Below, piece by piece: positions 1,636 through 18,657 of a stretch of DNA of 20,682 nucleotides. The translations under genes were made by a program, and so were the position numbers. The first letter of the stretch is position 1. Every line of letters begins with the position of its first letter. Origin of the DNA: a virus. The stretch is from positions 1 through 20,682 of the IMG/VR virus record IMGVR_UViG_3300042519_001536. One strand, given 5' to 3'. The notes below the pieces were generated by a model. It saw only the letters and a list, made by a program, of their open reading frames with translations. It was not told the origin of the DNA and searched no databases.

Positions 1636-3447
1636 ATGCCATACATTATAAACAAATATAGCGGGTCAGAACTTGTTGTTCTTCAAGACGGAACTTTAGA
1701 TACTTCTACAAGTATTGGATTGGTTGGTAGAAACTATGTGGGCTATGGAGAAACCCAGAATGAAAATTTTGTGTTTCTCTTGGAAAATTTTGCCGGAACA
1801 AATCCTCCAGCTCGTGCTGTAGAAGGACAAACTTGGTACGACAGTGCCAATAACAAATTAAATACCTATGATGGAATCAATTGGGTGCCTGTGGGAGCTG
1901 CTACAGCTTCGGAAAATGCACCGCCCGGCCCAACTGAAGGTGCTCTCTGGTATAAAATCTCAACCAAACAATTGTACGTTTATTCTAATATATCAGGATG
2001 GACACTTGTAGGACCCGAGGGAGTATCTGGTTTCGGTGAAACGAGGATCAAAGCAGCAATTTTAAGAGATACTAACAGTGTCAATCATGCAGTGTTGTTG
2101 GTGTTGGTTAATGATGAAGTATTGTCCATACACAGTTCGGATACTTTTACAATCAATACTTTAGATGCTATTATTGGTTTTAATGAGTTACAAAAAGGTG
2201 TTACGCTATCAACAAACGCAGTGATCTCTGGCAATCTATCAGGTAATTCAACCACCGCTACTAGATTGCAGAACGGAAGATTTATTAACAGTGCGTATTT
2301 TGATGGCAATAATGATATTACTGTTACTGCTAATACTCCTAGTATTCTAACTAGAGGTACATATTTAACAGGCAGCAATTTTAACGGCAGTGCAGCGACC
2401 ACTTGGTCAGTAGATGCATCCTCAGTTAACACCATAGGTAAGGTAGTTGCTAGAGATAGTACGGGTAGTTTTGCAGGCGGAACGATAACAGCAGACCAAT
2501 TTATTGGACCATTAACAGGCAATGTTACTGCAATATCTGGTACAAGTACATTTTACAGTCTTGTAGCCAATAATATACAAGGTTTTACTTTCAGCGGTCT
2601 TGCCGCCCAGGCTAGCACATTAACTCCTGGAAGAGCCATCAACGGCGTGCAATTTAACGGATCACAAGACATCACAGTTACCGCCGCAGCCAGCACTTTG
2701 AGCGGATCAACATTAGCTGCTGGAATAATTGATTCATCTTTGACTTCAGTGGGAACATTAGCAGGAGTTTCAATTACAGATGCAGGCGCAACGATTGGAG
2801 ATGCAGGCGAAATTCATTTGTTTATAAATGGAAACTCTCCTACTCTAGCTATTACTAACGGGTTGGGTTTTACAATCAGTATCAACGATGCATTTCAAAC
2901 TGGTGATGAAGCAAGTTTTGAGTTTATTTCAAGCTCGGTGGCGCTAGCCGCAGGCGGCTCAGCAGATCCTACTTTTGTAGGAGATGTTTCAAGCAAATGT
3001 AATATAGGACTACCAGGACGAACGTTTGGCAGTGTGTATGCAGATATTTTTAACGGTGTTGCAACCAGCGCACAATATGCTGACTTAGCTGAAAACTATG
3101 TTGCAGATGCAGAGTATCCTCCTGGCACAGTGCTAGAATTTGGCGGCGAATTTGAAGTTACACTTGCACAAGATGGCACCAACAGAGTAGCAGGAGTTGT
3201 TACTACAAATCCTGCTTATTTAATGAACAGTAACTGTCAAGGAACATATGTGGCCGCTGTAGCATTACAAGGAAGAACACCCTGTAAAGTTAGAGGCTCA
3301 ATCAGAAAAGGTGATATGTTAATTAGCGGAGGAAATGGTTTTGCTAGAACTGTCCAAACTCCACAAATGGGCACTGTAATAGGCAAAGCACTTGGTGATT
3401 TCGATGGCACAGAAGGTGTAATTGAAGTTGCAGTGGGTAGATTATAA
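1636..3447 (+). CDS. Fibre-like structural protein (paralogue B)
   Basis: This gene encodes 603 residues with an ATG start behind AAGGAG (1622-1627, 8-base spacing). Three modules are visible. Residues 1-~190 are a conserved N-terminal module (GYGETQNENFVFLLENFAG, ARAVEGQTWYDSANN, GALWYKISTKQLYVYS, GFNELQKGVTL) shared with the next gene and, in part, with the previous one. Residues ~190-475 are a Thr/Ser/Gly-rich middle unlike its neighbours. Residues ~475-603 are a C-terminal module (ATSAQYADLAENY, PPGTVLEFGG, TNPAYLMNS, ALQGRTPCKVRGSIRKGD) also shared with the next gene. The C-terminal module loosely resembles phage fibre-tip domains, some of which self-cleave; no catalytic residue can be assigned here. 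By position and composition this is probably a tail-fibre or tail-associated virion protein; the receptor is unknown. Confidence 0.88.
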   Translation: MPYIINKYSGSELVVLQDGTLDTSTSIGLVGRNYVGYGETQNENFVFLLENFAGTNPPARAVEGQTWYDSANNKLNTYDGINWVPVGAATASENAPPGPTEGALWYKISTKQLYVYSNISGWTLVGPEGVSGFGETRIKAAILRDTNSVNHAVLLVLVNDEVLSIHSSDTFTINTLDAIIGFNELQKGVTLSTNAVISGNLSGNSTTATRLQNGRFINSAYFDGNNDITVTANTPSILTRGTYLTGSNFNGSAATTWSVDASSVNTIGKVVARDSTGSFAGGTITADQFIGPLTGNVTAISGTSTFYSLVANNIQGFTFSGLAAQASTLTPGRAINGVQFNGSQDITVTAAASTLSGSTLAAGIIDSSLTSVGTLAGVSITDAGATIGDAGEIHLFINGNSPTLAITNGLGFTISINDAFQTGDEASFEFISSSVALAAGGSADPTFVGDVSSKCNIGLPGRTFGSVYADIFNGVATSAQYADLAENYVADAEYPPGTVLEFGGEFEVTLAQDGTNRVAGVVTTNPAYLMNSNCQGTYVAAVALQGRTPCKVRGSIRKGDMLISGGNGFARTVQTPQMGTVIGKALGDFDGTEGVIEVAVGRL

Positions 3448-3459
3448 TAAATCTGCTCA

Positions 3460-3467
3460 GATAAATA
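3460..3467 (+). promoter_or_regulatory. T4-type late promoter
   Basis: GATAAATA matches seven of eight positions of the T4 late consensus TATAAATA and lies in the 44-base gap before the gene at 3492. A start ~6 bases downstream would give a leader of about 20 bases that includes the GGAG ribosome-binding site (3481-3484). T4 late promoters are read by host polymerase with gp55, gp33 and the sliding clamp; none of these genes is in the window. Confidence 0.6.
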
Positions 3468-3491
3468 ATAGAATAATATTGGAGTAGATTG

Positions 3492-5240
3492 ATGGCATAT
3501 CAAGTAGACAGATTTAATGGCACGTTTTTAGTCTCAGTAGAAGACGGTACCATTGATACCACTACTGATCTACGCTTCTTAGGTAAAAATTACGCAGGTT
3601 ATGGCGAAGTACAGAACGAAAATTTCTTACACCTTTTAGAGAATTTTGCCAACACTTCCGCACCACCAAGAGCTGTACTAGGTCAAGTTTGGTTCGACAG
3701 TGCAAACAAAAAAATTAAATTCTATGATGGATCTAGATTTAGAACATCTGGCGGATCGGAAGTTAGTGCAACAGCACCTTCCGGACTTGTTGCAGGAGAT
3801 TTTTGGCTAGACACTACTACTGAGCAATTGTATGTATCTAATGGTACATCCTTTGTGCTGGTAGGTCCTCAAATAGCAGAAGATCCAGGCGCCACTGCTG
3901 TAGAAGTAGTAGTAGTAAAAGATACTAGTAATGTAAATCACACAATTATTAAATTCACCGTTAGCAGCGATACACAATATATAATGAGTAAGACTGCATT
4001 TACACTAAATCCTTCAGTTAATCCTATTACCGGGTTTAGTGAAATCAAAAAAGGTCTTACTCTAATCAATACCCCGGCTACCGGAGTAACTACAGATGAT
4101 CATATTCATTGGGGAACCGCTTCTAATGCTTCTAAACTAGGAGGGTTTGCAGCTAGTGAATATCTTAGAAATACCAATGCATTATTTCCAAATGGTGCAA
4201 AGTTTTATGACGTCGGTTACACTTTAGGTGATACTGATGATTTAAAAGTGTTTGTTGAATCAGGCGATCAACCTGTTATTTCTAATCAATTAGGATCTTC
4301 TGGATCTCAAACAATCACTGTAAGAATTGTTACATCCGGCGGAGATAGAGATTATGTATTTGGCGCAGATGCTATCTACCCAGCAGCAAACAATGCAAGA
4401 AATTTAGGTGCTACATCTGCAAGATGGGCCACAGTGTTTGCTACCACATTTAATGGAGCTCTCACTGGCAACGTTACAGGTAATGTAACAGGTAATGTAA
4501 CAGGTAACTTGACAGGATCAGTTAACGGATCGTTAACTGGTAATATAGTTTCGTCTACAGGAGTTACTGTATTAAATTCTGGTGCAGGTGCAGGCACAGC
4601 GGTATATGTAGGATCAGTTAATGGAACAGCTAGTAATGCCTTGCAATTGAATAATAAAATACAAGATGTTACTGCTGCTGCTGATACAATTGCTTTAAGA
4701 GACGCTAGTGGCAACCTAGTGGCCAATCAATTCACAGGAACAGCTACTCAGGCAAACACATTGTTGTATAACGGAGCCTACAGAACTGCCGTACATACTT
4801 CAACAGCCAATACAATTGTAGCTAGAGATGCTAGCTCAAACATTTATTGTAACATACTCAACGGAACTGCTACCTCAGCACAGTATGCTGACCTTGCAGA
4901 AAAATATCTAACAGATCAAGAATACGACACCGGAACAGTGATAGTTGTAGGCGGAGAAAAAGAAGTCACTGCTAGCACCTGGGGTAAACGAGCCATCGGA
5001 GTAGTCAGTGCCAATCCTGCATTTATGATGAATCGAGATCTAGAAGGCGGTACATATATTGCCCTTAAAGGCAGAGTTCCAGTAAAAATAATAGGATCGG
5101 TTAAAAAGGGAGACAATCTAATAGCAGCCAATGACGGTTGTGCTTCTGTAGCAGTTCACCATTCTAGTGAAGTGTTTGCAGTTGCATTAGAATCTAATAG
5201 CAATACAGGTGTAAAACTTGTTGAAGCTGTAATATTGTAA
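3492..5240 (+). CDS. Fibre-like structural protein with GNVT repeats (paralogue C)
   Basis: This gene encodes 582 residues. The ATG at 3492 is preferred to the in-frame TTG at 3489 because GGAG (3481-3484) is correctly spaced for it and the protein then begins MAYQVDRFNG, matching MPYIINKYSG of the previous gene. Residues 1-~190 repeat the shared N-terminal module (GYGEVQNENFLHLLENFAN, PPRAVLGQVWFDSANK, GFSEIKKGLTL). Residues ~326-353 form a tandem four-residue repeat (GNVT, GNVT, GNVT, GNLT, GSVN, GSLT, GNIV). Residues ~459-582 repeat the shared C-terminal module (ATSAQYADLAEKY, GTVIVVGGEKEVT, NPAFMMNR, GRVPVKIIGSVKKGD). The middle differs from paralogue B, so fibre modules appear to be exchanged around fixed ends. 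A tail-fibre role is inferred; the ligand is unknown. Confidence 0.88.
   Translation: MAYQVDRFNGTFLVSVEDGTIDTTTDLRFLGKNYAGYGEVQNENFLHLLENFANTSAPPRAVLGQVWFDSANKKIKFYDGSRFRTSGGSEVSATAPSGLVAGDFWLDTTTEQLYVSNGTSFVLVGPQIAEDPGATAVEVVVVKDTSNVNHTIIKFTVSSDTQYIMSKTAFTLNPSVNPITGFSEIKKGLTLINTPATGVTTDDHIHWGTASNASKLGGFAASEYLRNTNALFPNGAKFYDVGYTLGDTDDLKVFVESGDQPVISNQLGSSGSQTITVRIVTSGGDRDYVFGADAIYPAANNARNLGATSARWATVFATTFNGALTGNVTGNVTGNVTGNLTGSVNGSLTGNIVSSTGVTVLNSGAGAGTAVYVGSVNGTASNALQLNNKIQDVTAAADTIALRDASGNLVANQFTGTATQANTLLYNGAYRTAVHTSTANTIVARDASSNIYCNILNGTATSAQYADLAEKYLTDQEYDTGTVIVVGGEKEVTASTWGKRAIGVVSANPAFMMNRDLEGGTYIALKGRVPVKIIGSVKKGDNLIAANDGCASVAVHHSSEVFAVALESNSNTGVKLVEAVIL
4467..4550 (+). repeat. Seven tandem 12-bp units coding for GN(V/L)T-type repeats
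   Basis: Seven in-frame 12-base units follow one another. Units 2 and 3 (4479-4490 and 4491-4502, GGTAATGTAACA) are identical; units 1 and 4 are close variants, and units 5 to 7 are progressively diverged. They encode a regular four-residue repeat beginning with Gly, fitting a repetitive fibre shaft. The gradient from identical to diverged units suggests expansion by slippage or unequal recombination. Confidence 0.85.
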
Positions 5241-5249
5241 GGATTTAAA

Positions 5250-6158
5250 ATGGCCGCAGGTACAGGATTAATAATTGAAGCAGTAGACTATAATACAATA
5301 AGAACAAAAATTATTGGTATTATGGGAACAGGGGCTGGTCAATCAGGCTACGGCCAAACACTGCTGAGTTCTCCTGTGGCTTTTGGTAATACAGTAACAA
5401 AAGCGCAATGGGACAATTTGAGATTTGACATATTCAATGCCAGACTTCATCAAGATGGAGTATCACCGACAATTGTTACTGCTACCTCAGGACAACCTGT
5501 ACGATACGGGGCAGGGCATCCCAACAATCAATATAACACTCAAGCAGATACCGCAATTGCAAATAAATTTAGTATAGGTACCGGTCAATTTGTTATCGAG
5601 TCAGCTACGTCGGCTACTCGAACCACAGCATGGAATTCCAGTCTTACAGCAACAGTGACAGTAACCTTTGCTACCGCTGATCAAGCTCGTCACTTTTTTA
5701 ACAGCGGCAGTAAGGTAAGATGTTCAAGTTCTAGAACAGGCGGCACAGCAAGTCCGCAAAATTCTTCATGGTCAAACATATTAGATTCCGCTGGAACCGT
5801 GGCGTTTGGCGGAAACACCGCAGTATTAAATTTTTACAATTTAACAAATAGTTACCAAACATTTTTTACTTTGAGCTCAAGTGCCCCGTATACATCAAAT
5901 CAATATAGAATTGAAGTGGTTTCTAACGTGGCCGATAATAGCATAGGTGGAGCCACTACTTTAACTTTTAGAGTCACTTACACTGATACCTATACATATG
6001 GTGGCGGCGGCAGCCCAAGTTTTCCAGATAATGTTGATGGCACATTAACTCTTACTGTAGATGAATTACGAGCATCGGGCACACTACAACCATTAGGCAC
6101 TGGTCCCTTTGTTATAACAAGACCTGGCTACTCCATCTCTGGTATATCTGGCTCTTAA
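5250..6158 (+). CDS. Hypothetical structural protein, first of a tandem pair
   Basis: This gene encodes 302 residues from an ATG behind AAGGA (5239-5243, spacing 6), nine bases after the previous stop, with no late-type promoter in the gap, so it is probably co-transcribed with the upstream fibre gene. The protein starts with a conserved block (IIEAVDYNTIRTKIIGIMG, GYGQTL, WDNLRFDIFNARLHQDG), then a long Thr/Ser/Asn-rich beta-type region containing FFNSGSKVR, SSRTGG, FYNLTNSYQTF and LSSSAPY, and ends with a repetitive tail (DGTLTLTVDELRASGTL, FVITRPGYSI). Its whole length is similar to the next gene. I recall related unannotated proteins next to fibre genes in marine T4-like phages. A virion role is inferred from position and composition; the exact function is unknown. 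Confidence 0.85.
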   Translation: MAAGTGLIIEAVDYNTIRTKIIGIMGTGAGQSGYGQTLLSSPVAFGNTVTKAQWDNLRFDIFNARLHQDGVSPTIVTATSGQPVRYGAGHPNNQYNTQADTAIANKFSIGTGQFVIESATSATRTTAWNSSLTATVTVTFATADQARHFFNSGSKVRCSSSRTGGTASPQNSSWSNILDSAGTVAFGGNTAVLNFYNLTNSYQTFFTLSSSAPYTSNQYRIEVVSNVADNSIGGATTLTFRVTYTDTYTYGGGGSPSFPDNVDGTLTLTVDELRASGTLQPLGTGPFVITRPGYSISGISGS

Positions 6159-6164
6159 CACCTG

Positions 6165-6172
6165 TATAAATA
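6165..6172 (+). promoter_or_regulatory. T4-type late promoter, perfect octamer
   Basis: TATAAATA is identical to the T4 late promoter consensus and sits in the 41-base gap between two structural genes. A transcript starting ~6 bases downstream would have a leader of ~22 bases with AAGGATTAAGGA before the ATG at 6200. Confidence 0.8.
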
Positions 6173-6199
6173 GTCTTATGAAAAGGATTAAGGACTACA

Positions 6200-7105
6200 A
6201 TGGCTGTTAATGATCTTATAAAGACCACAGACTACAATAATCTACGTGCTAACATAATTGATATTATCGGCAACGGTTCGGCTACCTATGGTTATGGTCA
6301 AACTTTACAAAGTTCTGCTAAAGTTGATCATGAAAAAATTAGTCAAACTGACTGGGACCTTTTGAGATTTGATATTGTTAATGCTAGAACACATCAAGAT
6401 GGGGTAGCACCAACGATTACTGATATTAATGAAGGTCAGACTCTTTCTTTCACCAATAACACACAGTACAACAGTCTAATCTCAACTGCAATATCAAATA
6501 GATTCAATATAGGTTCAGGTAGATTTTTAACAGAAAGTGCAGTAAGTTCTACTAGATCCACGCAATGGAATTCTTTGGTTGTGTGTGAAGTCACAGCAAC
6601 TTTTGCTAATGCTAATCTGTGTCGTTGGTTTTTTAACAGTGGGGGGCAGATTAGAATTCAATCTTCACGAACTGGCGGAGACAGTACTGCTCAAAACAAT
6701 GATTGGTCTAATTTAACTACCTCTGCTGGAATGCAAGCATTTGGTAGTCAAACTCCATCGGCCGGATTCAGTCCGATGAACGGTCAAAATTTTTATAAAT
6801 TAACCAATTCGTATCAAAATTTTTATACCTTATCTTCATCTGCTCCATATTCGGCAAATAGTTATAATTTAGATGCCAGATGCGATGTTGCAGATAATTC
6901 TGCTGGTACAGCTACTACTGTGTTTATTCGAGTTAGATTTGTTGATAATTATACTGATCCAGGTGCTCCCGGTCCCGATGACATTATTGACGGAACACTA
7001 ACAGTTACAGTCACCGAAAAAAGAGCCACCGGCTCTTTAGTTCCATCTGGAACTTTTACCATCACTAGACCCACATATTCAATTACCGCAATCGGCGGAA
7101 CATAA
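6200..7105 (+). CDS. Hypothetical structural protein, second of a tandem pair
   Basis: This gene encodes 301 residues from an ATG behind AAGGATTAAGGA (ending at 6193). It is a full-length paralogue of the previous gene: LIKTTDYNNLRANIIDIIG, GYGQTLQSSA, WDLLRFDIVNARTHQDG, FFNSGGQIRIQSSRTGG, FYKLTNSYQNFYTLSSSAPY, DGTLTVTVTEKRATGSL and ITRPTYSI align in order with the first copy. The main difference is an insertion of about ten residues near PSAGFSPMNG before FYKLTNS. It has its own perfect late promoter, unlike the upstream copy. A virion role is inferred; two copies could form hetero-oligomers or bind different partners. Confidence 0.85.
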   Translation: MAVNDLIKTTDYNNLRANIIDIIGNGSATYGYGQTLQSSAKVDHEKISQTDWDLLRFDIVNARTHQDGVAPTITDINEGQTLSFTNNTQYNSLISTAISNRFNIGSGRFLTESAVSSTRSTQWNSLVVCEVTATFANANLCRWFFNSGGQIRIQSSRTGGDSTAQNNDWSNLTTSAGMQAFGSQTPSAGFSPMNGQNFYKLTNSYQNFYTLSSSAPYSANSYNLDARCDVADNSAGTATTVFIRVRFVDNYTDPGAPGPDDIIDGTLTVTVTEKRATGSLVPSGTFTITRPTYSITAIGGT

Positions 7106-7127: not shown

Positions 7128-7135
7128 TATAAATA
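7128..7135 (+). promoter_or_regulatory. T4-type late promoter, perfect octamer
   Basis: TATAAATA lies in the 56-base gap (7106-7161) upstream of the overlapping genes 7162-11710 and could drive that whole unit late in infection. The predicted leader is ~21 bases and contains GAGG (7152-7155). Confidence 0.8.
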
Positions 7136-7161
7136 ATATGCTACTATAACTGAGGATGATT

Positions 7162-7512
7162 ATGGACGACCGTTTACAAACTGCATTGGATTTTTCTAAG
7201 TATCGCCAAACACTTGCAATACAAAGAAGGCTTCTAAAAGAAAAACTACAAGCTAAACTAACCTATGGCGCCAGCGGAGGCATTTTTCATATTGATCATT
7301 CTTTAATTGTTTTTGTTCAATTGTGTATTGATCAAGGTAGAGTATCCGGTATACCATTAATTGATACCAATGAAAACCCAGTACTCATCGACGACTTGGT
7401 GAAATTTCGAGATGAAATTTTTGATAGATATTTTTCAGCCAGTTTTGAATATATGAGCGAATATGAAAAAATTAAAAAAAGTAGAACAGTTGAAAAATTA
7501 GTAGATTTATGA
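7162..7512 (+). CDS. Conserved hypothetical phage protein, alpha-helical
   Basis: This gene encodes 116 residues. The second in-frame ATG (7162) is chosen over the one at 7156 because GAGG (7152-7155) is six bases upstream of it but directly abuts the first. The N-terminal half (TALDFSKYRQTLAIQRRLLKEKLQAKL) looks helical and basic, followed by a GGIFHIDHSLIVFVQL segment and a charged tail (DLVKFRDEIFDRYF, YEKIKKSRTVEKLVDL). It resembles, from memory, a small protein conserved among marine T4-like phages with no assigned function. Its TGA overlaps the next ATG (ATGA), so it is translationally coupled to the glycosyltransferase-like cassette and shares its late promoter. Confidence 0.85.
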   Translation: MDDRLQTALDFSKYRQTLAIQRRLLKEKLQAKLTYGASGGIFHIDHSLIVFVQLCIDQGRVSGIPLIDTNENPVLIDDLVKFRDEIFDRYFSASFEYMSEYEKIKKSRTVEKLVDL

Positions 7513-8366
7513 AAAAAGGAATATTAATATTTGCTCACAACAGCAGAGATATTGATTATGCCTTGATGTCTTTAATATCTGCAAAATTTGCAAAAACGAA
7601 TCTGCAAGTTCCTGTGTCTTTGGTAGTTGACAAATTCACAATAGAATGGATGCAGACTTCTGGTATCTATGATCTTTCTCTAGAAACTTTTGATAAAATT
7701 ATAGAAATTGAAAAACCTGTTACTCAAAATATTCGAGTACTTAACGATGGATACACTTCTAAAACAGTTCCTTTTGTAAATTCAAATAGAGCTTCAGTTT
7801 GGGACCTTACACCATATGATAGAACATTGTTGATAGATAGCGATTTTTTAATTATGTCCGACAGCTTGAATCAATATTGGGATGCCGATACCGATGTAAT
7901 GTTATCTCCATCCATGCAAGATGTTAGAGGAGATAGAAAAGGTATTTTGGATTCTTGGGTTTCTGAAACTGGAATTCCGTTATATTGGGCAACTACAGTA
8001 ATGTTTACTAAAAATAGTGAATCTAAAATATTCTTTGACCTAGTAGATGTTATACGAACAAATTATAATTATTTTGCAGATTTGTTTAGATTTAACCCCA
8101 AACAATATAGAAATGACATTGCTTTCAGCATAGCAAAACATATGCTCAACGGATTTGACACAGGAGCTGAAAATCTCCCCCCGATACTAACACTGTTAGA
8201 TAAAGATCTAATTCATTCTGTTGGTAAAAATCAATTGCGTGTTTATTTAAATGATAACTTGTCTGAAGATCACGTGGTCATTGCATCTATTAAAGATCTG
8301 GATATCCATGTAATGAACAAACAGAGTGTAATTAGAAATGCAAAAGAATTTTTGGAGATATTATGA
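7509..8366 (+). CDS. GT-A-like glycosyltransferase (DSD motif)
   Basis: This gene encodes 285 residues and overlaps the previous stop by four bases. The start resembles a GT-A nucleotide-sugar fold (KKGILIFAHNSRDIDYALMSLISAKFAK, then VPVSLVVDKFTI). The candidate metal and nucleotide-sugar site is LLIDSDFLI, with the acidic triad at residues ~110-112 (DSD) following a YDR segment, as in GT8-like enzymes. Later segments (WATTVMFTKNSESKIFFDLVD, NDIAFSIAKHMLNG) resemble the acceptor-side part of such enzymes. It shares the pattern PxDxTxxxDxDxL with the next protein, suggesting distant paralogy. There is no signal peptide or membrane segment, so it should act in the cytoplasm. Transfer of a sugar to a virion protein, DNA or host glycan is possible; donor and acceptor are unknown. 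Confidence 0.75.
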   Translation: MKKGILIFAHNSRDIDYALMSLISAKFAKTNLQVPVSLVVDKFTIEWMQTSGIYDLSLETFDKIIEIEKPVTQNIRVLNDGYTSKTVPFVNSNRASVWDLTPYDRTLLIDSDFLIMSDSLNQYWDADTDVMLSPSMQDVRGDRKGILDSWVSETGIPLYWATTVMFTKNSESKIFFDLVDVIRTNYNYFADLFRFNPKQYRNDIAFSIAKHMLNGFDTGAENLPPILTLLDKDLIHSVGKNQLRVYLNDNLSEDHVVIASIKDLDIHVMNKQSVIRNAKEFLEIL

Positions 8367-9202
8367 CTTTTGGATATCTCATTGTAGTTTCTAAAAACGA
8401 TTCAGTTGACTATTTAAAATTAGCTTATGCTCTAGCATTGAGCATTAAAAATACTCAAAGAAAAGGATTTGACAAAGTAGCATTGGTAACTGATAATATT
8501 GAAGATGTTAAAAAACTAAAAAGTCCTTGGGTGTTTAACGAAATTATTGAATGGAATCAAGAAACTTTTTGGGATGGTCGAAGTTGGATGGATAAACTAA
8601 GTCCTTGGGACTATACCGTATGTTTAGATGCAGACATGTTGTTTTTTAGAGATTATAGTCATTGGGTTGAATACTTTATTGAGAATTCTGAACTATATAT
8701 TCCCAATAAGTCATATACCTATCGAGGAGAGATCGTAAAAGATTCGTATTATAGAAAAACATTTGAACATAACGATCTTCCTAATTTATATTCTTTTTAC
8801 ACATTTTTTAAAAAAGATTCTAAACTATCCGAAGAATTCTTTTCATTAGGTAGGCACATTTTAAAAAATCCTAATGAATTTAAAAATTTATTTTTAGAAA
8901 ATTATATTCCAAAAGTAGTAGGTACCGACGAAGCATTTAGTTTAGCTGCAAAAATTTTAGATATTCAAGACGATATCAGTTATGATTTAGAATTTCCTAA
9001 AGTAGTTCATTTAAAACCAATGATACAAAATTGGCCCTGGCCTGCTGATAAAGTTTCTGACCATGTTGGATTTTATTTTGATCTGAAGGGTAAATTAAAA
9101 ATTGGAAATTATCAGCAACAAGATATTGTTCATTATAACGAAAAAAATTATGTAACTGATGAAGTTATTAGTATTTTAGAGAAAATTCTATGGAAGAAAT
9201 AA
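8363..9202 (+). CDS. GT-A-like glycosyltransferase (DAD motif)
   Basis: This gene encodes 279 residues and overlaps the previous gene by four bases (ATGA). An N-terminal strand-helix unit (FGYLIVVSKNDSVDYLKLAYALALSIKN, KVALVTDN) precedes SPWDYTVCLDADMLFF, where DAD at residues ~89-91 is the expected metal-binding triad of a GT-A fold. Downstream, VVGTDEAFSLAAKIL and FPKVVHLKPMIQNWPWP resemble the C-terminal acceptor and metal-ligand region (conserved His) of GT8-like enzymes. The gene is visibly A/T-rich, with runs such as ttttttaaaaaa. There is no membrane segment. Together with its upstream neighbour it makes a pair that may act on the same acceptor in sequence; the substrate is unknown. 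Confidence 0.75.
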   Translation: MTFGYLIVVSKNDSVDYLKLAYALALSIKNTQRKGFDKVALVTDNIEDVKKLKSPWVFNEIIEWNQETFWDGRSWMDKLSPWDYTVCLDADMLFFRDYSHWVEYFIENSELYIPNKSYTYRGEIVKDSYYRKTFEHNDLPNLYSFYTFFKKDSKLSEEFFSLGRHILKNPNEFKNLFLENYIPKVVGTDEAFSLAAKILDIQDDISYDLEFPKVVHLKPMIQNWPWPADKVSDHVGFYFDLKGKLKIGNYQQQDIVHYNEKNYVTDEVISILEKILWKK

Positions 9203-9780
9203 TTGATTTTGACAGTTGGTTACAGCAATATACTGCACCACAAGTAGAATACTGGGCAATTTTTGAGCCCACTACCGGTGAAGTTACTGGAATTTATCCC
9301 GATCTTGCTGCTTATGATAAACAATATAAAATAAAAATTGATAGAGATCTAGCAGAAGATATACATAGCGGAATAATTCAAATGAGTTCCTGTTTTGTAG
9401 ATATGGATTCTGAAACAGTTGAAATCATTACCAAGCACAGTCTTGTTAAGATCGACGATGTACTGCATAGAGTTATTGATAAAAAATATGTGCCCGATCA
9501 AAAAAATGATATTATTATTCAATACAATGAATTAGAAAATAAAATAATTTTTGTTTTACACAATTCGATTAAAACTAGAAAGATTCAATGGGCCGGAAGT
9601 ACTGAAATGCAGTTTTTTATCACAGGCTATAATGATCCACACGATCTCTATCAGACAATAGTTTTTCAACTAAAAGATTTAGAACAAAGTTCTAAAGAAT
9701 TTATTTACACAGGATCTCACAATCAATTTAGTATTTTTACAAGAAGAATATTAAAAAATTATGTTTTTGAAAAAATATGA
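9190..9780 (+). CDS. Unrecognised cassette protein
   Basis: This gene encodes 196 residues; the ATG at 9190 lies inside the end of the upstream gene (13-base overlap) and its stop overlaps the next ATG, so it is an integral member of the cassette. I do not recognise the family. The N-terminal half (VEYWAIFEPTTGEVTGIYPDLAAYDKQYKIKIDRDLAEDIHSG) and the C-terminal half (IIIQYNELENKIIFVLHNSI, MQFFITGYNDPHDLYQTIVFQLKDL) both look rich in beta strands. It has no DXD motif, no Cys cluster and no membrane segment. It may be an acceptor, a scaffold or a virion protein acted on by the neighbouring transferases, but that is inference from gene order only. Confidence 0.78.
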   Translation: MEEIIDFDSWLQQYTAPQVEYWAIFEPTTGEVTGIYPDLAAYDKQYKIKIDRDLAEDIHSGIIQMSSCFVDMDSETVEIITKHSLVKIDDVLHRVIDKKYVPDQKNDIIIQYNELENKIIFVLHNSIKTRKIQWAGSTEMQFFITGYNDPHDLYQTIVFQLKDLEQSSKEFIYTGSHNQFSIFTRRILKNYVFEKI

Positions 9781-10655
9781 AAACTATAGAACTAGATATT
9801 GTATTTTTAAGCTATGACGAGCCAAATGCAGATTTGCATTATGCAGATCTATGCAATAAAGTTCCTTGGGCTAAAAGAGTACACGGAATAAAAGGCAGCG
9901 ATGAAGCACACAAAGAAGCTGCAAGACAATCAGAAACAGATTGGGTTATTACTGTAGATGCAGACAACATTGTTGACACAAAATTTTTTAACACAGAGTT
10001 TGATCCTGATCAAAAAAATTTACAAGTAGTCAGCTGGTTAGCACGTAATAAAATTAACGGATTACGATACGGAAATGGCGGGCTGAAAATATGGCGTAAG
10101 GATTTTATTCTTAATATGAAAACGCACGAAGCCAGTGACAGTGATCGTGGCCAGGTAGATTTTTGTTGGGAAAATGGGTACCAACAATTTAAAGAATGTT
10201 ATAGTGAAACAATTATTACAGGATCACCTTTTCAGGCCTGGCGAGCAGGATTCCGTGAAGGTGTTAAAATGACTTTGTTAGACGGAGTCAAAGTGTTGCC
10301 CGATGAAATTCAAGAACGTGTATGGTGGCATAATCTTCATAGATTAAAAATGTGGTCAACTGTTGGTTCACATGAAGAAAATGGAAAATATGCTGTGCTT
10401 GGCGCACGTATGGGAACTTGGATGACTAACTGCACAAATTGGAATTATGTTGATGTTAGAGATTTTGAAATCTTAAGAAATATTTATAACGAAAATGTTG
10501 ATCATGACACAGTTGAACAGGATATACAAAATTTTGGAATAAAAATTAATCAGCAATTAGGTTTTAATTACCCTTATTTGGATCCCAAACAAAGCAAGTA
10601 TACTTTAGACCTGTATAACGAAACAATGAATTTAACAAACACATATCTAAAATGA
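9777..10655 (+). CDS. Glycosyltransferase-like protein (VDADN motif), phage family
   Basis: This gene encodes 292 residues and overlaps both neighbours by four bases. The protein has DIVFLSYDEPNAD, WAKRVHGIKGSDEAHKEAA and WVITVDADNIVD, where DAD at residues ~61-63 follows a hydrophobic strand as in GT-A folds, then RYGNGGLKIW, FQAWRAGFREGVKM and HRLKMWSTVGSHEENGKYAVLGARMG. I recall this VHGIKG/DADN family as recurring in marine T4-like phages, often labelled glycosyltransferase. The following gene repeats the same ordered motifs, so the two are paralogues. It appears distinct from the two GT8-like proteins upstream. The activity is inferred from the motif; no substrate can be assigned. Confidence 0.75.
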   Translation: MKTIELDIVFLSYDEPNADLHYADLCNKVPWAKRVHGIKGSDEAHKEAARQSETDWVITVDADNIVDTKFFNTEFDPDQKNLQVVSWLARNKINGLRYGNGGLKIWRKDFILNMKTHEASDSDRGQVDFCWENGYQQFKECYSETIITGSPFQAWRAGFREGVKMTLLDGVKVLPDEIQERVWWHNLHRLKMWSTVGSHEENGKYAVLGARMGTWMTNCTNWNYVDVRDFEILRNIYNENVDHDTVEQDIQNFGIKINQQLGFNYPYLDPKQSKYTLDLYNETMNLTNTYLK

Positions 10656-11710
10656 TCTACGATATTTTTTATGTAAGCAAAAACACTGTCAACGACACTG
10701 ATTGGTTATCTTTTAACAAAAGATTTCCATTATCTCAAAAAATTGAAAATGTAAAAAATTTCTCAGATATTTCCAACAGAGCATTCACTAAGTTATTTTG
10801 GGTAGTTTGGGATGATATAATTGTTTTAGATGATTTTGATTTTAGTTATATTGTTACAAAATGGGATGAAAAATACATCCATGTTTTTAAAAATGCAGAC
10901 CATTATGATGGTGTAACATTATTCTCAAAACATTCAAATGTAAGTAACAAAGAACTTGAAAAAAGATTTTACATAAATCATAAAAAAATAGATATAATTG
11001 CTAGCGAACCAAAGAACACCGAACTCTATGATATAGTGTTTATCAGTTATAATGAGCCAACAGCTGATGCTAATTTTATAAATTTAAAATCAAAATTCCC
11101 AAGAACTAAAAGAGTGCATGGAATTAAAGGTATACATCAAGCCCACATAGCCGCCGCCAAACTAGCAAAGACCTGTATGTTTTGGGTAGTTGACGGCGAT
11201 GCTGAAATTGTTGAAGATTTTAATTTTGATTATAAGGTATCTGCCTACGAGCAAGATATTGTATACGTTTGGCGCAGTAAAAATCCTATCAATGATCTAG
11301 TGTACGGATATGGAGGAGTTAAACTATTGCCAACTTCAATGACTATAGGCATGGATGTATCTAAGCCAGATATGACAACTAGTATATCTAGTAAATTTAG
11401 AGCAGTAAAGTCTATATCAAACATCACAGCATTTAACACTGATCCGTTCAACACTTGGAAATCAGCGTTTAGAGAATGTTGTAAATTGTCCAGTAAAATT
11501 ATTGATAGACAAAAAAGCGAAGAAACATTACATAGACTCGATGTATGGTGTACGTTGGGTTCTGATAGACCGTTTGGACAAGAAGCTATTGCCGGAGCAA
11601 TAGCAGGCAAAGAATACGGAGAGTTTAATAAAGACGATCTAGAAGCACTTAAAAAAATCAACGATTTTGATTGGTTAAAAGAATATTATGAACAACAAAC
11701 AAAAAAATAG
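10652..11710 (+). CDS. Glycosyltransferase-like protein with duplicated N-terminal domain
   Basis: This gene encodes 352 residues and overlaps the upstream gene by four bases. Residues ~126-352 are a paralogue of the previous protein: YDIVFISYNEPTAD, TKRVHGIKGIHQAHIAAAK, FWVVDGDAEIVEDF (DGD at ~181-183), YGYGGVKLL, FNTWKSAFRECCKL and HRLDVWCTLGSDRPFG. Residues ~3-93 repeat the first part of that domain in degenerate form: YDIFYVSKNTVNDTDWLSF, then AFTKLFWVVWDDIIVLDDFDF (WDD at ~53-55) and VFKNADHYDGVTLFSK. The first copy lacks the VHGIKG motif and has lost the second half, so it is probably non-catalytic, perhaps serving binding or dimerisation. This is the last gene of the overlapping set; the 26-base gap after it holds a late-type promoter. 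Confidence 0.75.
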   Translation: MIYDIFYVSKNTVNDTDWLSFNKRFPLSQKIENVKNFSDISNRAFTKLFWVVWDDIIVLDDFDFSYIVTKWDEKYIHVFKNADHYDGVTLFSKHSNVSNKELEKRFYINHKKIDIIASEPKNTELYDIVFISYNEPTADANFINLKSKFPRTKRVHGIKGIHQAHIAAAKLAKTCMFWVVDGDAEIVEDFNFDYKVSAYEQDIVYVWRSKNPINDLVYGYGGVKLLPTSMTIGMDVSKPDMTTSISSKFRAVKSISNITAFNTDPFNTWKSAFRECCKLSSKIIDRQKSEETLHRLDVWCTLGSDRPFGQEAIAGAIAGKEYGEFNKDDLEALKKINDFDWLKEYYEQQTKK

Positions 11711-11723
11711 ATCTCAAACAGGA

Positions 11724-11731
11724 TCTAAATA
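11724..11731 (+). promoter_or_regulatory. T4-type late promoter variant abutting the start codon
   Basis: TCTAAATA matches the late consensus at seven of eight positions and ends five bases before the ATG at 11737. With T4 geometry (start ~6 bases after the octamer) transcription would begin at or next to the ATG, giving a nearly leaderless message. Confidence 0.5.
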
Positions 11732-11736
11732 ATCAT

Positions 11737-13122
11737 ATGAAATGGCGTCAAAAAAGAATAGATTTTAAAGAACAAATTCTAAACCCTATTAGCCCTAGTT
11801 ATTGCGCAGCCAAGTGGAGTCAAGTTACTATACACTTAGGGTCAGGACATACTCATAGTTGTCATCATCCAAGAACACATCTAATACCCCTAGAAGAAAT
11901 CAAACGTAGTCCTAGTGCCTTACATAATACGTCTTTTAAGATTGAACAGCGTTTAGATATGCTTAACGGCAAACGTCCTACAGAATGTGAATATTGTTGG
12001 CAAGTAGAAGACCGAGGTGAGGTACTTAGCGATAGAGTGTTAAAAAGTTACGAACCATGGAGTAAAGATAGAATTTCTGATCTTCAAGGGCTGAATCATG
12101 TTAATCCAAGCTATTTAGAAATTAGTTTTAGTAATGTATGTAATTTTAAATGTAGTTATTGTAGTCCAGATGTCAGTAGTAAATGGATGGAAGAAATTGA
12201 AAAGTTTGGAGCATATCCTACCAGTCAAAAATTTAACAATATAGAATGGATTAAGACACAGAACAAGATGCCTTTTTTAGAGCGTGATCTAAATCCATAT
12301 GTAGAAGCATTTTGGCAATGGTGGCCTGAACTTTACCCTACTCTTCATACATTTAGAATTACTGGTGGCGAACCGTTAATGACCAAACATACCTTTAGAG
12401 TATTAGACTATATCATAGAACATCCAAATCCGGAACTAGAGCTAGGTATAAACAGCAATCTATGCGTTCCAGAAAAGCTAATGGATGAGTTTATTGAAAA
12501 AATTCAACAAATACAAACAGCCAAAGCTGTTAAGAATGTAATGGTTTACACCAGCTGTGAGGCATATGGAGCTCAAGCCGAGTACATACGTTACGGCATG
12601 GATTATAAACAATGGTTATTAAATTGCGATCGTTATCTTAGCTCTGTTCCAGACTCACAAATTCATATCATGAGTACTTACAATTTACTAAGTGTAATCA
12701 GTTATCAACAGTTCTTAGAAGATATTTTAGTTTTGAAAAGAAAACATTGTAGTCCTCGGATTAATAACAATCATTCTGTATATATAGATATTCCCTATCT
12801 AAATTATCCTTCTCATCAAGTTGTAGGTTTATTATCGGAGGAGTTTATTATTAATATACAAGTACAGATTGATTTTATGAAAAACAACATCGATAAAAAT
12901 GAAGAAGATCGTATGGGATTTTTTATAAGTGAGGTAGAAAAATTACAGCGTGTACTTACGGTATTTGAATCTAAGATAAAAAACGGATACCCAGAAAAAG
13001 AACAATTTAGAAAAGACTTTGTTAACTTTGTCGATGAACATGATCGTCGTAGAGGCACAAACTTTAAAAATACATTTCCAGAACTTATGAAATTTTATAA
13101 CGTTTGTAAACAATTACCATAA
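11737..13122 (+). CDS. Radical SAM protein with N-terminal twitch-like domain
   Basis: This gene encodes 461 residues. The N-terminal region has four cysteines spaced as in an auxiliary iron-sulphur 'twitch' domain: C23, C42 (in SCHHPRTHLIPLEEI), C84 and C87 (ECEYCWQVED). The core radical SAM motif is ISFSNVCNFKCSYC with C135-x3-C139-x2-C142, followed by the TGGEP SAM-binding motif at ~209-213 and a conserved stretch near 270-292 (VMVYTSCEAYGAQAEYIRYG). This order, twitch first and then the radical SAM core, matches the family I know as twitch domain-containing radical SAM proteins, found in phages and marine bacteria with no defined reaction. Relatives with SPASM/twitch clusters often modify peptides. 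It follows the glycosyltransferase-like cassette but has a separate late-type promoter. No strong ribosome-binding site is seen; AGGA at 11720-11723 is 13 bases from the ATG. Confidence 0.88.
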   Translation: MKWRQKRIDFKEQILNPISPSYCAAKWSQVTIHLGSGHTHSCHHPRTHLIPLEEIKRSPSALHNTSFKIEQRLDMLNGKRPTECEYCWQVEDRGEVLSDRVLKSYEPWSKDRISDLQGLNHVNPSYLEISFSNVCNFKCSYCSPDVSSKWMEEIEKFGAYPTSQKFNNIEWIKTQNKMPFLERDLNPYVEAFWQWWPELYPTLHTFRITGGEPLMTKHTFRVLDYIIEHPNPELELGINSNLCVPEKLMDEFIEKIQQIQTAKAVKNVMVYTSCEAYGAQAEYIRYGMDYKQWLLNCDRYLSSVPDSQIHIMSTYNLLSVISYQQFLEDILVLKRKHCSPRINNNHSVYIDIPYLNYPSHQVVGLLSEEFIINIQVQIDFMKNNIDKNEEDRMGFFISEVEKLQRVLTVFESKIKNGYPEKEQFRKDFVNFVDEHDRRRGTNFKNTFPELMKFYNVCKQLP

Positions 13123-17051: not shown

Positions 17052-17515
17052 AGATTCTTTTTTCTAACAGAATTAATATCAATAACGCCAGTGTTCACAG
17101 CGCCGCCGAAATCTCCGTCAACTACTACATTAGCACATAGTTCACGGAACCAACGATCTACAATCTCTTCGTCTTTATCACCGTCGAAACCATAGCCCTC
17201 TTGCTTTAATTTTAACACAAAATGATCGTTCCAGTCAAGCTCAAAAAAGCCATTCCTAATATTGTCTTTGTTTATGTGTGTATTTAATACACCTACCCAT
17301 GGTTCTTTGAGCCTAGTAGCCCGATCTTTTGGTGCTAACTTGGCCGATTCTTCTTGCTCTAGAGCAAGATTTGCTTTCTTTTCGGCTAGGGTAATTTCAT
17401 CAGCCTTCTGATCAGCTAGTTTTGTAGCTTCATCTATTGCTGTTTTGGTATCGATAAGTTGTTGCTCTAGTTTATCAATACCCATTATTTTTTTAAAGAA
17501 TTTTGTTAGCATCAT
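17048..17515 (-). CDS. Conserved hypothetical phage protein with N-terminal coiled coil
   Basis: This gene encodes 155 residues. The ATG at 17515 is chosen because it forms an ATGA overlap with the QueE stop and has a G-rich GTGGGG just upstream; the next codon is also ATG, and an in-frame GTG lies at 17524. Residues ~15-65 are a coiled coil (LEQQLIDTKTAIDEATKLADQKADEITLAEKKANLALEQEE, split here by description only at its heptads). The C-terminal domain contains KEPWVGVLNTHINKDN, GFFELDWNDHFVLKLKQEG and DEEIVDRWFRELCANVV, which I recall from other marine T4-like phages. Its location between QueE and RNase H does not settle a function. It has no membrane segment. Confidence 0.83.
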   Translation of the reverse strand: MMLTKFFKKIMGIDKLEQQLIDTKTAIDEATKLADQKADEITLAEKKANLALEQEESAKLAPKDRATRLKEPWVGVLNTHINKDNIRNGFFELDWNDHFVLKLKQEGYGFDGDKDEEIVDRWFRELCANVVVDGDFGGAVNTGVIDINSVRKKNL

Positions 17516-18366
17516 GTACCCCACTCGTTTTTAAATAATGGAACTTGTAGTCTATCGCTATAGCGCCAGCCACGCTTCATTGCCGCTAGTGCTACATTCT
17601 TTGCGTTAAGTGTATATACACTTTCCACTCCGCCCACTGGCATTAAGTAAACGTGCCCTTTAAATCCCGCTTCTTTAAATTCCTCAACAGCGTGTTCTGC
17701 ATCGATAACATCTTCTGCTGTTGCTACTACAAATTTAAGATATGCTGTACCTACTTCTTCGTATTCACAAACAACTTCTGGGCGAATAGCCTCAAACCAA
17801 TTCTCACCACTTGCAGGAAGTTTAGCACTTACTGAAAATGTAAGCTCTTTACCCACTTCGCTATTCCACTTTCTCAAGTATTCTTTAAATTCCGGAGTAA
17901 GTTTTTGAGTACCATTTGTTTCAAATGTAATTTCCTTCAACGCCTTCATTTTAGAATTGTTAAGCAAGTCTGGATAAGCACGTTGCCAACCCAGCAAAGG
18001 TTCGCCACCTGTAATAACCAAGTGTTCATCCTTCCACTCGTTATGCGGAATAATTTCCATAATACGATCTGTAATTGCTTCGCTAGTAAGCATTGGCGAC
18101 AAATCTTTAAACTCTGGCATCCAAGATGCATAAGAATCACAACCTGTGCTAACTAGTGGAAGCTCTTCATACTTTTGAAAAGGTGTAACTAATGAATGTG
18201 TAGCTGCAATACCAGCAGCCTCCATACTCAATTCACCACGCGACATACCAAACCCAGCACACTTAAAGTTACAACCAAATGTGCGTAGAAATACACTAGG
18301 AACACCCATATAGCGTCCCTCACCTTGAATGCTGTAAAACAACTCTGCAATTTTAATCTTACTCAT
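17512..18366 (-). CDS. queE: 7-carboxy-7-deazaguanine synthase QueE-like radical SAM enzyme
   Basis: This gene encodes 284 residues. The start FYSIQGEGRYMGVPSVFLRTFGCNFKC is the QueE signature, and TGGEPLLGW (from ~119) and FETNGT (~148-153) are typical radical SAM/QueE core motifs. QueE converts 6-carboxy-tetrahydropterin to 7-carboxy-7-deazaguanine, a precursor of preQ0, queuosine and 7-deazaguanine DNA modifications. The usual CX3CX2C cluster is interrupted: C32 and C36 are normal, but the expected third cysteine is 40 residues on, at C76 in STGCDSYASW, which mirrors the WCDTxYAW of ordinary QueE. The intervening segment starts AGFGMSRGELS. Variant spacings are known in QueE, so this is probably active. 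The gene overlaps MazG upstream by four bases. No QueC, QueD or FolE is in the window. Confidence 0.92.
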   Translation of the reverse strand: MSKIKIAELFYSIQGEGRYMGVPSVFLRTFGCNFKCAGFGMSRGELSMEAAGIAATHSLVTPFQKYEELPLVSTGCDSYASWMPEFKDLSPMLTSEAITDRIMEIIPHNEWKDEHLVITGGEPLLGWQRAYPDLLNNSKMKALKEITFETNGTQKLTPEFKEYLRKWNSEVGKELTFSVSAKLPASGENWFEAIRPEVVCEYEEVGTAYLKFVVATAEDVIDAEHAVEEFKEAGFKGHVYLMPVGGVESVYTLNAKNVALAAMKRGWRYSDRLQVPLFKNEWGT

Positions 18367-18650
18367 ACGTTAATTTCACCTTCAAAAATATTTGACCACT
18401 GTTTTAGTTTAGCAATCTTGTTGTCGGCGGCAATGATCACTTCTTCTTTGTCTACTAGATTGTGGTCTATACAAAGATTGATCATGGCCTGTAAATCTCC
18501 TAGCTCTTCCGCCAAATGCTGTCTATTAGTAAGTGGCTTACCTGGTTTAACATTATCTAAACCAAAGCGATTAATTTTACTAATAGCAACAATTACTTCT
18601 GCACATTCTTCTTGAGTAATGTCTAGAATTTCTTTTTCTTTATTATTCAT
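18363..18650 (-). CDS. MazG-like nucleotide pyrophosphohydrolase
   Basis: This gene encodes 95 residues from the ATG at 18650; a GTG at 18665 is an in-frame alternative that would overlap the upstream stop, and neither has a strong ribosome-binding site. The all-alpha NTP pyrophosphohydrolase signature is present: EExxE in TQEECAEVIVAI (E14, E15, E18), and ExxD in LAEELGDLQAMINL (E49, D52), which together bind the Mg ions. The short length fits single-domain phage MazG-type enzymes. These hydrolyse (d)NTPs, or possibly other nucleotides, to monophosphates; in phages a role in dNTP pool or alarmone control has been proposed. It sits between an AbrB-like gene and QueE in a nucleotide-metabolism run and overlaps QueE by four bases. 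Confidence 0.87.
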   Translation of the reverse strand: MNNKEKEILDITQEECAEVIVAISKINRFGLDNVKPGKPLTNRQHLAEELGDLQAMINLCIDHNLVDKEEVIIAADNKIAKLKQWSNIFEGEINV

Positions 18651-18657
18651 ATTACTA

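Follow-up and report, generated by a model that had tools for sequence, protein, structure and literature searches.

The window analysed here (the whole stretch of 20,682 nt, record IMGVR_UViG_3300042519_001536, from an uncultured T4-type phage lineage) encodes a unit of six overlapping genes followed by a gene for a radical SAM enzyme (rSAM), and the order of these genes recurs beyond chance among relatives picked through module genes. Our preferred reading, tentative and at a little under an even chance, is a late, obligately linked glycan-assembly module that would decorate a virion appendage protein and be tailored by rSAM, in an uncultured branch of the T4 superfamily. The six-gene unit and rSAM make up a defined set, in which the N_Twi_rSAM family is tied to putative glycan enzymes by gene order and by a fusion, and the relatives of one of its members, GT4, expose a repeat-array glycosyltransferase architecture.

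Layout and predicted promoter of the unit

The features of the region are listed in Table 1. The five ORFs from GT1 to GT4 overlap their neighbours by 4-13 nt, as originally predicted for an overlapping unit at 7509-11710; the unit starts earlier than predicted, however, in that g7156 shares 4 nt with the GT1 ORF and belongs to the coupled unit as its first gene. The rSAM ORF starts 26 nt past the GT4 ORF. No match to tRNA or Rfam models was found within the window, and a sigma-70 scan gave fewer sites in the window (32) than in shuffled sequences (37.3).

Table 1. Features of the unit and of the genes directly upstream, in window coordinates
Feature	Position	Strand	Basis or remark
Two tail-fibre-like genes, candidate acceptors	1636..5240 (1636-3447, 3489-5240)	+	tail-fibre PHROGs among matches
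Two paralogous genes, candidate acceptors	5250..7105 (5250-6158, 6200-7105)	+	51% identical; directly before unit
T4-type late promoter motif (presumed) TATAAATA	7128..7135	+	exact motif; start 28 nt before g7156
g7156, 118 aa, function-unassigned first gene of unit	7156..7512	+	ORF; GT1 next in the homologues listed
GT1, putative glycogenin-like GT-A, DSD 110-112	7509..8366	+	weak profile match
GT2, GT1 paralogue, DAD 89-91	8363..9202	+	hhalign to GT1
Orphan, 196 aa, predicted mostly beta	9190..9780	+	AlphaFold2 model; precedes GT3
GT3, putative single-domain GT-A protein, DAD 61-63	9777..10655	+	homology to GT4
GT4, predicted N-terminal degenerate half-GT-A repeat, one copy in window	10652..10999	+	hhalign of repeat and catalytic domain
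GT4, predicted catalytic GT-A domain, DGD 181-183	11000..11710	+	AlphaFold2, fold search
rSAM, radical SAM enzyme with N-terminal twitch domain (N_Twi_rSAM)	11737..13122	+	NF033640

The exact motif at the head of the unit, which we take to be a T4-type late promoter motif, was found within 90 nt upstream in 51 of the 141 distinct g7156 homologues among the matches listed, compared with 60 of 20000 random 90-mers, and upstream of none of the listed homologues of the other genes (0/168 for GT1, 0/171 for GT2, 0/167 for the orphan, 0/173 for GT3 and 0/177 for GT4). This pattern supports the claim of one coupled unit, and the unit would be expressed late from the g7156 promoter. A late-type promoter of its own had also been predicted for rSAM, and this candidate was rejected: the element at 11724 (TCTAAATA) carries one mismatch and is not conserved, and the relaxed late motif precedes only 3 of the 242 rSAM genes among the matches listed.

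Relatedness and predicted folds of the encoded proteins

The four glycosyltransferase-like proteins fall into two pairs, with GT1 homologous to GT2 (hhalign 97.5%, E 7e-12) and GT3 homologous to GT4 (hhalign 99.9%, E 2e-36); GT2 with GT3 was the one cross pair compared, and no relatedness was detectable by profile comparison. None of the four reached a curated Pfam or NCBIfam cut-off. When GT1 and GT2 were combined into a joint profile, all 19 matches in PDB were glycogenins (best, glycogenin-1, E 0.0034, region 16-118 only); against the PDB sequence profiles, GT1 alone matched FAP20 (E 0.06) ahead of glycogenin (E 0.64) and GT2 alone gave no match. For the GT8 model PF01501, neither window protein gave a match at E 1 or a score at the gathering level, and one of 80 aligned GT1/GT2 proteins matched, at E 0.002. 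Residues D110, D112, H267 and K271 of GT1 (170/170) and D89, D91, H216 and K218 of GT2 (168/168) are kept throughout the matches listed; both proteins thereby carry the DxD and C-terminal H...K that we take to be the GT8 glycogenin-type motif. GT1 and GT2 weakly resemble glycogenin and may be GT-A-like.

GT3 scored below the gathering scores of the Pfam GT2-family models (PF13704, 15.9 versus 27.5 bits; PF00535, 13.9 versus 23.3 bits), for which GT4 gave no match; PF00535 was matched at E <=0.01 by 2 of 48 aligned GT3/GT4 proteins (best 0.0031). Against the PDB sequence profiles, GT3 alone gave nothing and GT3 and GT4 together gave one match, at E 0.9. The AlphaFold2 model of whole GT4 (pLDDT 94.8, pTM 0.87) gave fold matches to B4GALNT1 (Z 11.4), WrtF (10.4), ThuS (10.3) and the PBCV-1 capsid glycosyltransferase (9.5); its residues 123-283 scored Z 9.3-11.4 to GT-A transferases and nucleotidyltransferases, the latter (such as IspD) reaching Z 10-11 against the GT4 model too, and the top Foldseek matches were transferases. 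A GT-A fold is thus confidently predicted for GT4 from its model, and is putatively assigned to GT3 by homology. Among the matches listed, conservation within the five-gene core is highest for GT3, whose 167 distinct proteins form one cluster at 60% identity, with D61 in 167/167 and D63 in 166/167; the catalytic residues of these families are essentially invariant.

GT4 is a two-part protein, a repeat followed by the catalytic domain, and among the matches listed its relatives carry zero to eight degenerate half-glycosyltransferase repeats ahead of one catalytic domain. Repeat and catalytic domain are related (hhalign 98.1%, E 6.7e-14), and the profile of each matches the domain of the other. 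An expanding array of predicted-dead half-GT-A repeats would, if true, represent a new protein architecture.

rSAM scored 333.5 bits with NCBIfam NF033640 (N_Twi_rSAM; cut-off 170; residues 19-454), and is the only single protein of the window above a curated cut-off in the Pfam/NCBIfam searches, in NCBIfam; the Pfam Radical_SAM model gave 27.9 bits, just below its cut-off of 29.5. Two divergent rSAM copies of relatives pass NF033640 as well (302.7 and 302.4 bits). Among the matches listed, the CxxxCxxC cysteines (C135, C139, C142) are found in 186/186 proteins, and C23, C42, C84 and C87 in 182/186, the other four being gapped; CxxxCxxC with the N-terminal twitch cysteines presumably constitutes the N_Twi_rSAM motif. 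The NF033640 family, of which rSAM is a member by score, has a record that gives no function; here, its members lie constantly near GT3/GT4 and in one case are fused to GT4.

In PHROGs, whose families carry no cut-offs, rSAM matched radical SAM families and GT2 matched phrog_1903 (function unassigned, E 0.0022), and the other unit genes gave matches only at E >0.01. In tblastn searches of 50,697 phage records no match was obtained for GT1 and GT3 at E 1e-5 or for GT2, GT4 and g7156 at E 1; rSAM gave two weak matches, to Vibrio phages.

The orphan was modelled as mostly beta (AlphaFold2; pLDDT 84.0, pTM 0.57), and its C-terminal half weakly resembles an Ig/FN3 sandwich in that model. The top PDB match of the fold search was DUF3244 (Z 5.8); no PDB entry matched at E <=0.001 or reached Z 8. 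At E <0.001 the search gave three BFVD models, all uncharacterised or unnamed, and PDB sequence profiles gave chance-like matches only. Conservation within the five-gene core is lowest for the orphan, whose homologues split into 38 clusters at 60% identity (among the matches listed).

The gene content originally predicted for 7509-13122 (an orphan, a radical SAM gene of twitch type and, from two families, four GT-A-like genes) was borne out by the ORFs, hhalign and NF033640, as were the two GT-A-like pairs with intact DxD by profile matches, the fold of GT4 and invariant residues.

Conservation of order and linkage

Relatives were collected in four module-anchored viral scans (best 80 of 414, 487, at least 589, and 546 confirmed stretches), and the order tests describe relatives picked in this way, each by a search with one module gene out of four. 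As a control, two further scans started from genes that lie outside the module (20 loci; best 80 of 429). The module-anchored set comprises 298 loci in 149 groups, 131 of which have all five core genes. The order g7156-GT1-GT2-orphan-GT3 was observed in 129 of these 131 groups among the matches listed, which is beyond chance, and in the two exceptions g7156 had been dropped by a length filter. Likewise among the matches listed, g7156 is followed by GT1 in 151/151 distinct homologues for which 1.5 kb of sequence was available, and the orphan by GT3 in 160/160; the successive pairwise orders are kept in 151/151, 168/171, 162/163, 160/160 and 134/140, and the 10 departures are all accounted for by over-extended starts, a single split GT2 or a single GT4-rSAM fusion. 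Five very divergent contigs keep the order as well (5/5, g7156 included).

The module had been described as an accessory cassette, a label that does not fit the core. With m13429 of the minus block as anchor, 25 groups offered 9.5 kb or more of sequence; 22 of them showed a module gene therein and the remaining three carry GT1-GT2 elsewhere in the record (among the matches listed). The module is not accessory, because all 25 groups anchored on this outside gene carry it, and its presence there suggests that the sugar decoration would be a central and non-optional part of the phage life cycle. The upstream gene 6200 as anchor gave the module in 9/9 groups among the matches listed. In 120 of 121 groups among the matches listed, the gene immediately before g7156 is a homologue of 5250/6200 (matching 6200 best in 88 groups and 5250 best in 32), a constant neighbour that agrees with the predicted placement on the virion side. 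Of the predicted 'fibre proteins next door', the genes at 1636 and 3489 qualify by their PHROG matches; 5250 and 6200 have no PHROG match, and 6200 matches Pfam Collar only at E 0.12. The neck model PF11649 gave no match in five records, in a search run without positive control.

The rSAM side varies among relatives, as does the stretch downstream of GT4, which in some relatives includes genes for an epimerase, UDP-Glc/GDP-Man dehydrogenase, DegT and a 2OG oxygenase. The predicted linkage of rSAM was borne out: a gene matching the rSAM profile, on either strand, lies downstream of GT3 in 42/42 groups with 6 kb of sequence among the matches listed, and one contig (appearing as loci L025 and L267) carries a GT4-rSAM fusion. 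Two Bdellovibrionia MAGs without Gp23 carry GT3-GT4-rSAM and lack GT1, GT2, the orphan and g7156 in the available stretch; in the one MAG examined for them, the neighbours of this trio are of chromosomal type, and therefore the trio is not virion-specific.

Candidate roles and related systems

In the scheme that we infer for enzyme activities, acceptor, order of steps, expression and the roles of orphan, repeats and rSAM, the glycogenin-like GT1 and GT2 and the GT2-family-like GT3 would attach core sugars to an appendage of the virion; the likeliest acceptor would be a fibre, or a protein associated with fibres, whose gene lies just upstream. The beta-rich orphan would act as co-factor or be the decorated part, and GT4 (a variable array of dead half-glycosyltransferase repeats with one live domain) and at least one N-twitch radical SAM enzyme would tailor the decoration in a lineage-specific manner. 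The scheme is favoured by the fixed order, the constant upstream neighbour, the late motif, the invariant motif residues, the fold of GT4, the constant linkage and single fusion with rSAM, and the epimerase, dehydrogenase, DegT and 2OG oxygenase genes of some relatives. Weighing against it are the two genes right before the unit, which match no fibre family, the GT3-GT4-rSAM trio of Bdellovibrionia, the scores of GT1-GT4 below all curated cut-offs, the match of GT1 alone to FAP20 ahead of glycogenin, the nucleotidyltransferases among the fold matches of GT4, the weak fold match of the orphan, and the exact late motif, present before only 51 of the 141 g7156 homologues among the matches listed. 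An extension of this scheme, which we consider unlikely, is a diversity-generating system of virion maturation, with glycocin/RiPP-like tailoring aimed at the phage appendage: the invariant GT1-GT3 would build the core glycan, and GT4 arrays, growing and shrinking by half-glycosyltransferase units, and swapped N-twitch radical SAM enzymes would vary the decoration between phages; such changes would, if real, alter what hosts or defences recognise.

The main rival, with perhaps one chance in three, is that a host-surface glycan (O-chain or similar) is remodelled late in infection, blocking re-adsorption of progeny or superinfection, with the fibres sharing the host-recognition region. Published work on pelagimyophages interprets the glycosyltransferases next to their tail fibres, most commonly GT8, in this way, in the part of the account available (PMC7029224). 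The epimerase, dehydrogenase and DegT genes of the variable part would, as sugar-nucleotide genes, fit a surface polysaccharide equally, and the Bdellovibrionia trio with its chromosomal-type neighbours also points to a host glycan. On such a reading turnover with the host would be expected, yet the core is constant over the 131 groups and GT3 forms its single cluster (among the matches listed), and the family matches in the unit name no membrane or lipid-carrier gene. Phage glycosyltransferases are often DNA-modifying, and glycosylation of phage DNA, like that of hydroxymethylcytosine by the T4 alpha- and beta-glucosyltransferases, is a further rival, in favour of which stand the dCMP deaminase, MazG-like and QueE-like genes of the window. 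The T4 DNA glucosyltransferases are GT-B enzymes, whereas GT4 is predicted as GT-A; the thymidylate synthase model PF00303, which presumably covers dCMP hydroxymethylase, matched 0 of 5 records (111-199 kb, possibly fragments) versus 9 of 14 control genomes, and the module, headed by a late motif, lies next to virion genes. A T4-like DNA-glucosylation set was rejected on the fold of GT4 and the lack of a PF00303 match in those five records, and we regard DNA as a quite improbable acceptor. Phage fibre genes commonly have accessory islands as neighbours, and the variable stretch downstream of GT4 would suit a set of unrelated accessory genes lying together by happenstance; however, no independent gain or loss of core genes was seen in 149 groups, 5 divergent contigs and 25 outside-anchored groups (among the matches listed), with the core genes occurring together as predicted. 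Independent accessory genes were rejected by the order tests for the core, for which this explanation is the least probable of all, and are possible for the extras downstream of rSAM.

For the virion-decoration module that we prefer, the claim that no pathway of this composition has been described holds in part. Pelagimyophages are T4-like and, like the window, combine fibre genes with several glycosyltransferases and radical SAM cassettes; as far as the available part of PMC7029224 goes, their host recognition cluster, between VrlC and gp14, is hypervariable, whereas the five-gene core is fixed here. The ingredients are known from pelagimyophages; in the parts available of the literature on the nearest systems, no description of the fixed module or of GT4 arrays was found. 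As many as 12 radical SAM genes, which the authors link to Fe-S assembly, have been described in T4-like viral genomes from the environment; these are radical SAM-rich as here, and glycosyltransferases are unmentioned in the available portion of that account (PMC5332604). According to the available text of PMC12619734, moraphages are large phages of aquatic habitats that widely share four orthogroups of putative glycosyltransferases; they are placed outside the T4 families studied there, and most have Bacteroidota as predicted hosts. Capsid and tail glycans of mycobacteriophages are reported in the same text; for the gene cluster of Corndog, the section available of PMC4351075 gives an O-methyltransferase beside the glycosyltransferase genes and mentions neither a radical SAM gene nor half-glycosyltransferase arrays. 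In both accounts, as far as available, the mycobacteriophage glycosyltransferase genes sit inside the virion gene block, as they do here.

Gene layout and conservation of the gene order

The window (20,682 bases of an IMG/VR virus record; G+C content 36.5%) carries the genes listed in the table, in which GT stands for glycosyltransferase-like and rSAM for radical SAM; g7156, GT1, GT2, the orphan and GT3 form the five-gene core. From g7156 through GT4, neighbouring genes share overlaps of 4-13 nt. No capsid gene was recognised within the window; its kinship with T4 is judged from its relatives, Gp23 being encoded in five of six long virus records. The minus-strand exonuclease has its closest matches in jumbo phages, e.g. 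PA5oct (52%), and a 7-deazaguanine route is possible for the QueE-like, MazG-like and dCMP deaminase genes.

Features of the window
Feature	Position	Remarks
1636, 3489	upstream of g7156	tail-fibre PHROGs among matches of both
5250, 6200	between fibre-like genes and g7156	no PHROG match; mutual identity 51%
g7156	start 7156	118 aa, first of overlapping run
GT1	start 7509	
GT2	start 8363	
orphan	start 9190	
GT3	start 9777	
GT4	start 10652	
rSAM	11737-13122	26-nt gap after GT4
minus-strand block	after rSAM	exonuclease, QueE-like, MazG-like and dCMP deaminase genes
replication block genes	17512-18366 and 18363-19315 (-)	QueE-like radical SAM, MazG-like pyrophosphohydrolase, dCMP deaminase

IMG/VR was scanned with GT3 (414 confirmed stretches, best 80 used) and with three further profiles, led by divergent members of the g7156, GT1 and orphan families (487, at least 589 and 546 confirmed; best 80 each used), which combined gave 298 loci, all chosen for a module gene. 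With each distinct protein counted a single time, and only if at least 1.5 kb of sequence lay beyond it, g7156 was followed by GT1 in 151/151, GT1 by GT2 in 168/171, GT2 by the orphan in 162/163, the orphan by GT3 in 160/160 and GT3 by GT4 in 134/140 cases; of the ten exceptions, one is a split GT2, one a fusion of GT4 with rSAM, and the rest reflect over-extended ORF starts. Merging of similar loci left 149 groups, 131 of which hold all five core genes, with the order intact in 129. Five order-differing loci list just GT1-GT2-orphan-GT3, because g7156 matches of 80 aa or less were filtered out. A 5250 or 6200 homologue lies directly upstream in 120 of the 121 groups with room. Conservation within the core is highest in GT3 (1 cluster at 60% identity, 23 at 80%) and lowest in the orphan (38 and 75).

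Anchors outside the module were also used. For m13429, a gene of the minus-strand block (429 confirmed stretches, best 80 used), 25 groups extend at least 9.5 kb toward the module; this stretch contains a module gene in 22 and an rSAM gene in 24, and for the three groups without a module gene there, GT1-GT2 was located in another part of the record. The 6200-anchored scan yielded 20 loci in nine groups, all nine with the module.

Protein families and GT4 repeat arrays

Profile comparison identified GT1 and GT2 as mutual homologues, and likewise GT3 and GT4; no relationship was detectable between GT2 and GT3, and none of GT1-GT4 reached curated cut-offs in Pfam or NCBIfam. Against solved structures, a joint GT1 and GT2 profile (80 sequences) matched glycogenins only (best E 0.0034); with GT1 alone this match was weaker and ranked below an unrelated protein. 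The predicted GT4 model (pLDDT 94.8, pTM 0.87) has a GT-A fold at residues 123-283. Its nearest structure is B4GALNT1 (Z 11.4, rmsd 2.8, 137 aligned), followed by WrtF (Z 10.4), ThuS (Z 10.3) and the PBCV-1 capsid transferase (Z 9.5); nucleotidyltransferases such as IspD also match at Z 10-11, and in Foldseek transferases rank first (K4 chondroitin polymerase, E 2.1e-5). Among distinct relatives, the DxD residues are conserved in 170/170 for GT1, 168/168 for GT2, 167/167 and 166/167 for GT3, and 123/125 for GT4 (proteins of at least 320 aa; the other two gapped). The rSAM protein is an N_Twi_rSAM member (333.5 bits, cut-off 170) with its cluster cysteines conserved in 186/186.

Distinct GT4 proteins mainly consist of the catalytic domain alone (41 proteins) or of this domain preceded by one (53), two (21), three (29), four (13), five (4), six (2) or eight (1) repeats, besides 13 partial or cut forms. 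The repeat unit corresponds to the first half of the catalytic domain in degenerate form (hhalign 98.1%, E 6.7e-14, 96 columns). The longest array, in a 1084-aa homologue (L251:8396-11647), comprises eight half-GT repeats and one terminal catalytic domain, which retains DxD. Several of the units are near-identical and lack DxD, from which we infer recent tandem growth.

Late-promoter motif and radical SAM linkage

The sequence TATAAATA, which we take to be the T4 late motif, occurs within 90 nt upstream of 51/141 g7156 homologues, compared with 60/20,000 random stretches, and upstream of no GT1-GT4 or orphan homologue; g7156 is therefore probably the start of a single late unit. The late promoter originally predicted for the rSAM gene itself was not borne out, as among 242 rSAM genes the exact motif was found before none, and its relaxed form before three.

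With both strands considered, all 42 groups with at least 6 kb have an rSAM-profile gene downstream of GT3 (one copy in 16, two in 14, three in 8 and four in 4), and on a single contig GT4 is fused in frame to a radical SAM enzyme (L025:9030-11453, 808 aa). In relatives, additional genes occupy up to about 8 kb between GT4 and the minus-strand block. A Pfam search of ten representatives (six without match) identified further rSAM genes, one type being B12-binding, as well as genes for NAD epimerase, UDP-Glc/GDP-Man dehydrogenase and 2OG-Fe(II) oxygenase; a 335-kb T4-type contig carries DegT and UDP-Glc/GDP-Man dehydrogenase. These genes suggest activated-sugar supply and further tailoring.

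Distant relatives and candidate function

A single GT4-profile scan of bacterial and archaeal genomes yielded six loci. Gp23-type phage contigs are present in three of the MAG bins concerned, in two with Gp23 and the match on one contig. All five contigs examined from the three bins have the order g7156-GT1-GT2-X-GT3; three of them have an X that is weakly orphan-like (23-36 bits), and in the other two X (292 and 296 aa) could not be recognised; in one contig each, GT1 was detected by the joint profile only, GT3 is truncated at the contig end, and a 95-aa ORF separates X from GT3. An rSAM gene directly follows GT3 in three. A Neisseriaceae MAG contig encodes a GT3-GT4 fusion (528 aa). Two Bdellovibrionia MAGs, in neither of which Gp23 was found, carry a GT3-GT4-rSAM trio without other module genes in the stretch examined; in L304, whose neighbours were examined, these look chromosomal (MoxR, DUF58, S49 peptidase, T2SSE). 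These two genomes have 33 and 31 N_Twi_rSAM matches, 19 each above cut-off, and in the former 13 cluster in about 30 kb of one contig.

The GT motifs, which are intact, together with the late motif, the neighbour on the virion side, the constant linkage to rSAM and the single fusion, point to a module that would make a glycan late, to be modified by radical chemistry. Judged by module position, the acceptor is most likely a virion appendage. Action on a surface glycan is kept as a serious rival by the chromosome-like contig bearing the trio and by the sugar-nucleotide genes of the variable stretch; modification of DNA is unlikely, given the GT-A fold of the GT4 model and the absence of a PF00303 (thymidylate synthase) match from five records of 111-199 kb, possibly fragments, where 9 of 14 control genomes gave one. 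The fixed five-gene core and the half-GT arrays were not found described in the open-access literature consulted. Those accounts report that in pelagimyophages, as in the window, glycosyltransferase genes and radical SAM cassettes lie in the fibre region (PMC7029224), and describe an ocean T4-like genome with 12 rSAM genes (PMC5332604) and four widely shared glycosyltransferase groups in moraphages (PMC12619734).

Phosso, Vibrio 2.275.O, PA5oct and K566 gave no match to the GT1/2, GT3/4 and g7156 profiles, of which the first two were positive on the group's own records (8/8 and 4/4) and g7156 was without positive control. The MCP of one relative (G007) is 69-74% identical to those of Phosso, Vibrio 2.275.O and PA5oct, and the cultured Vibrio phage K566 has three annotated radical SAM genes in a 10.6-kb stretch.
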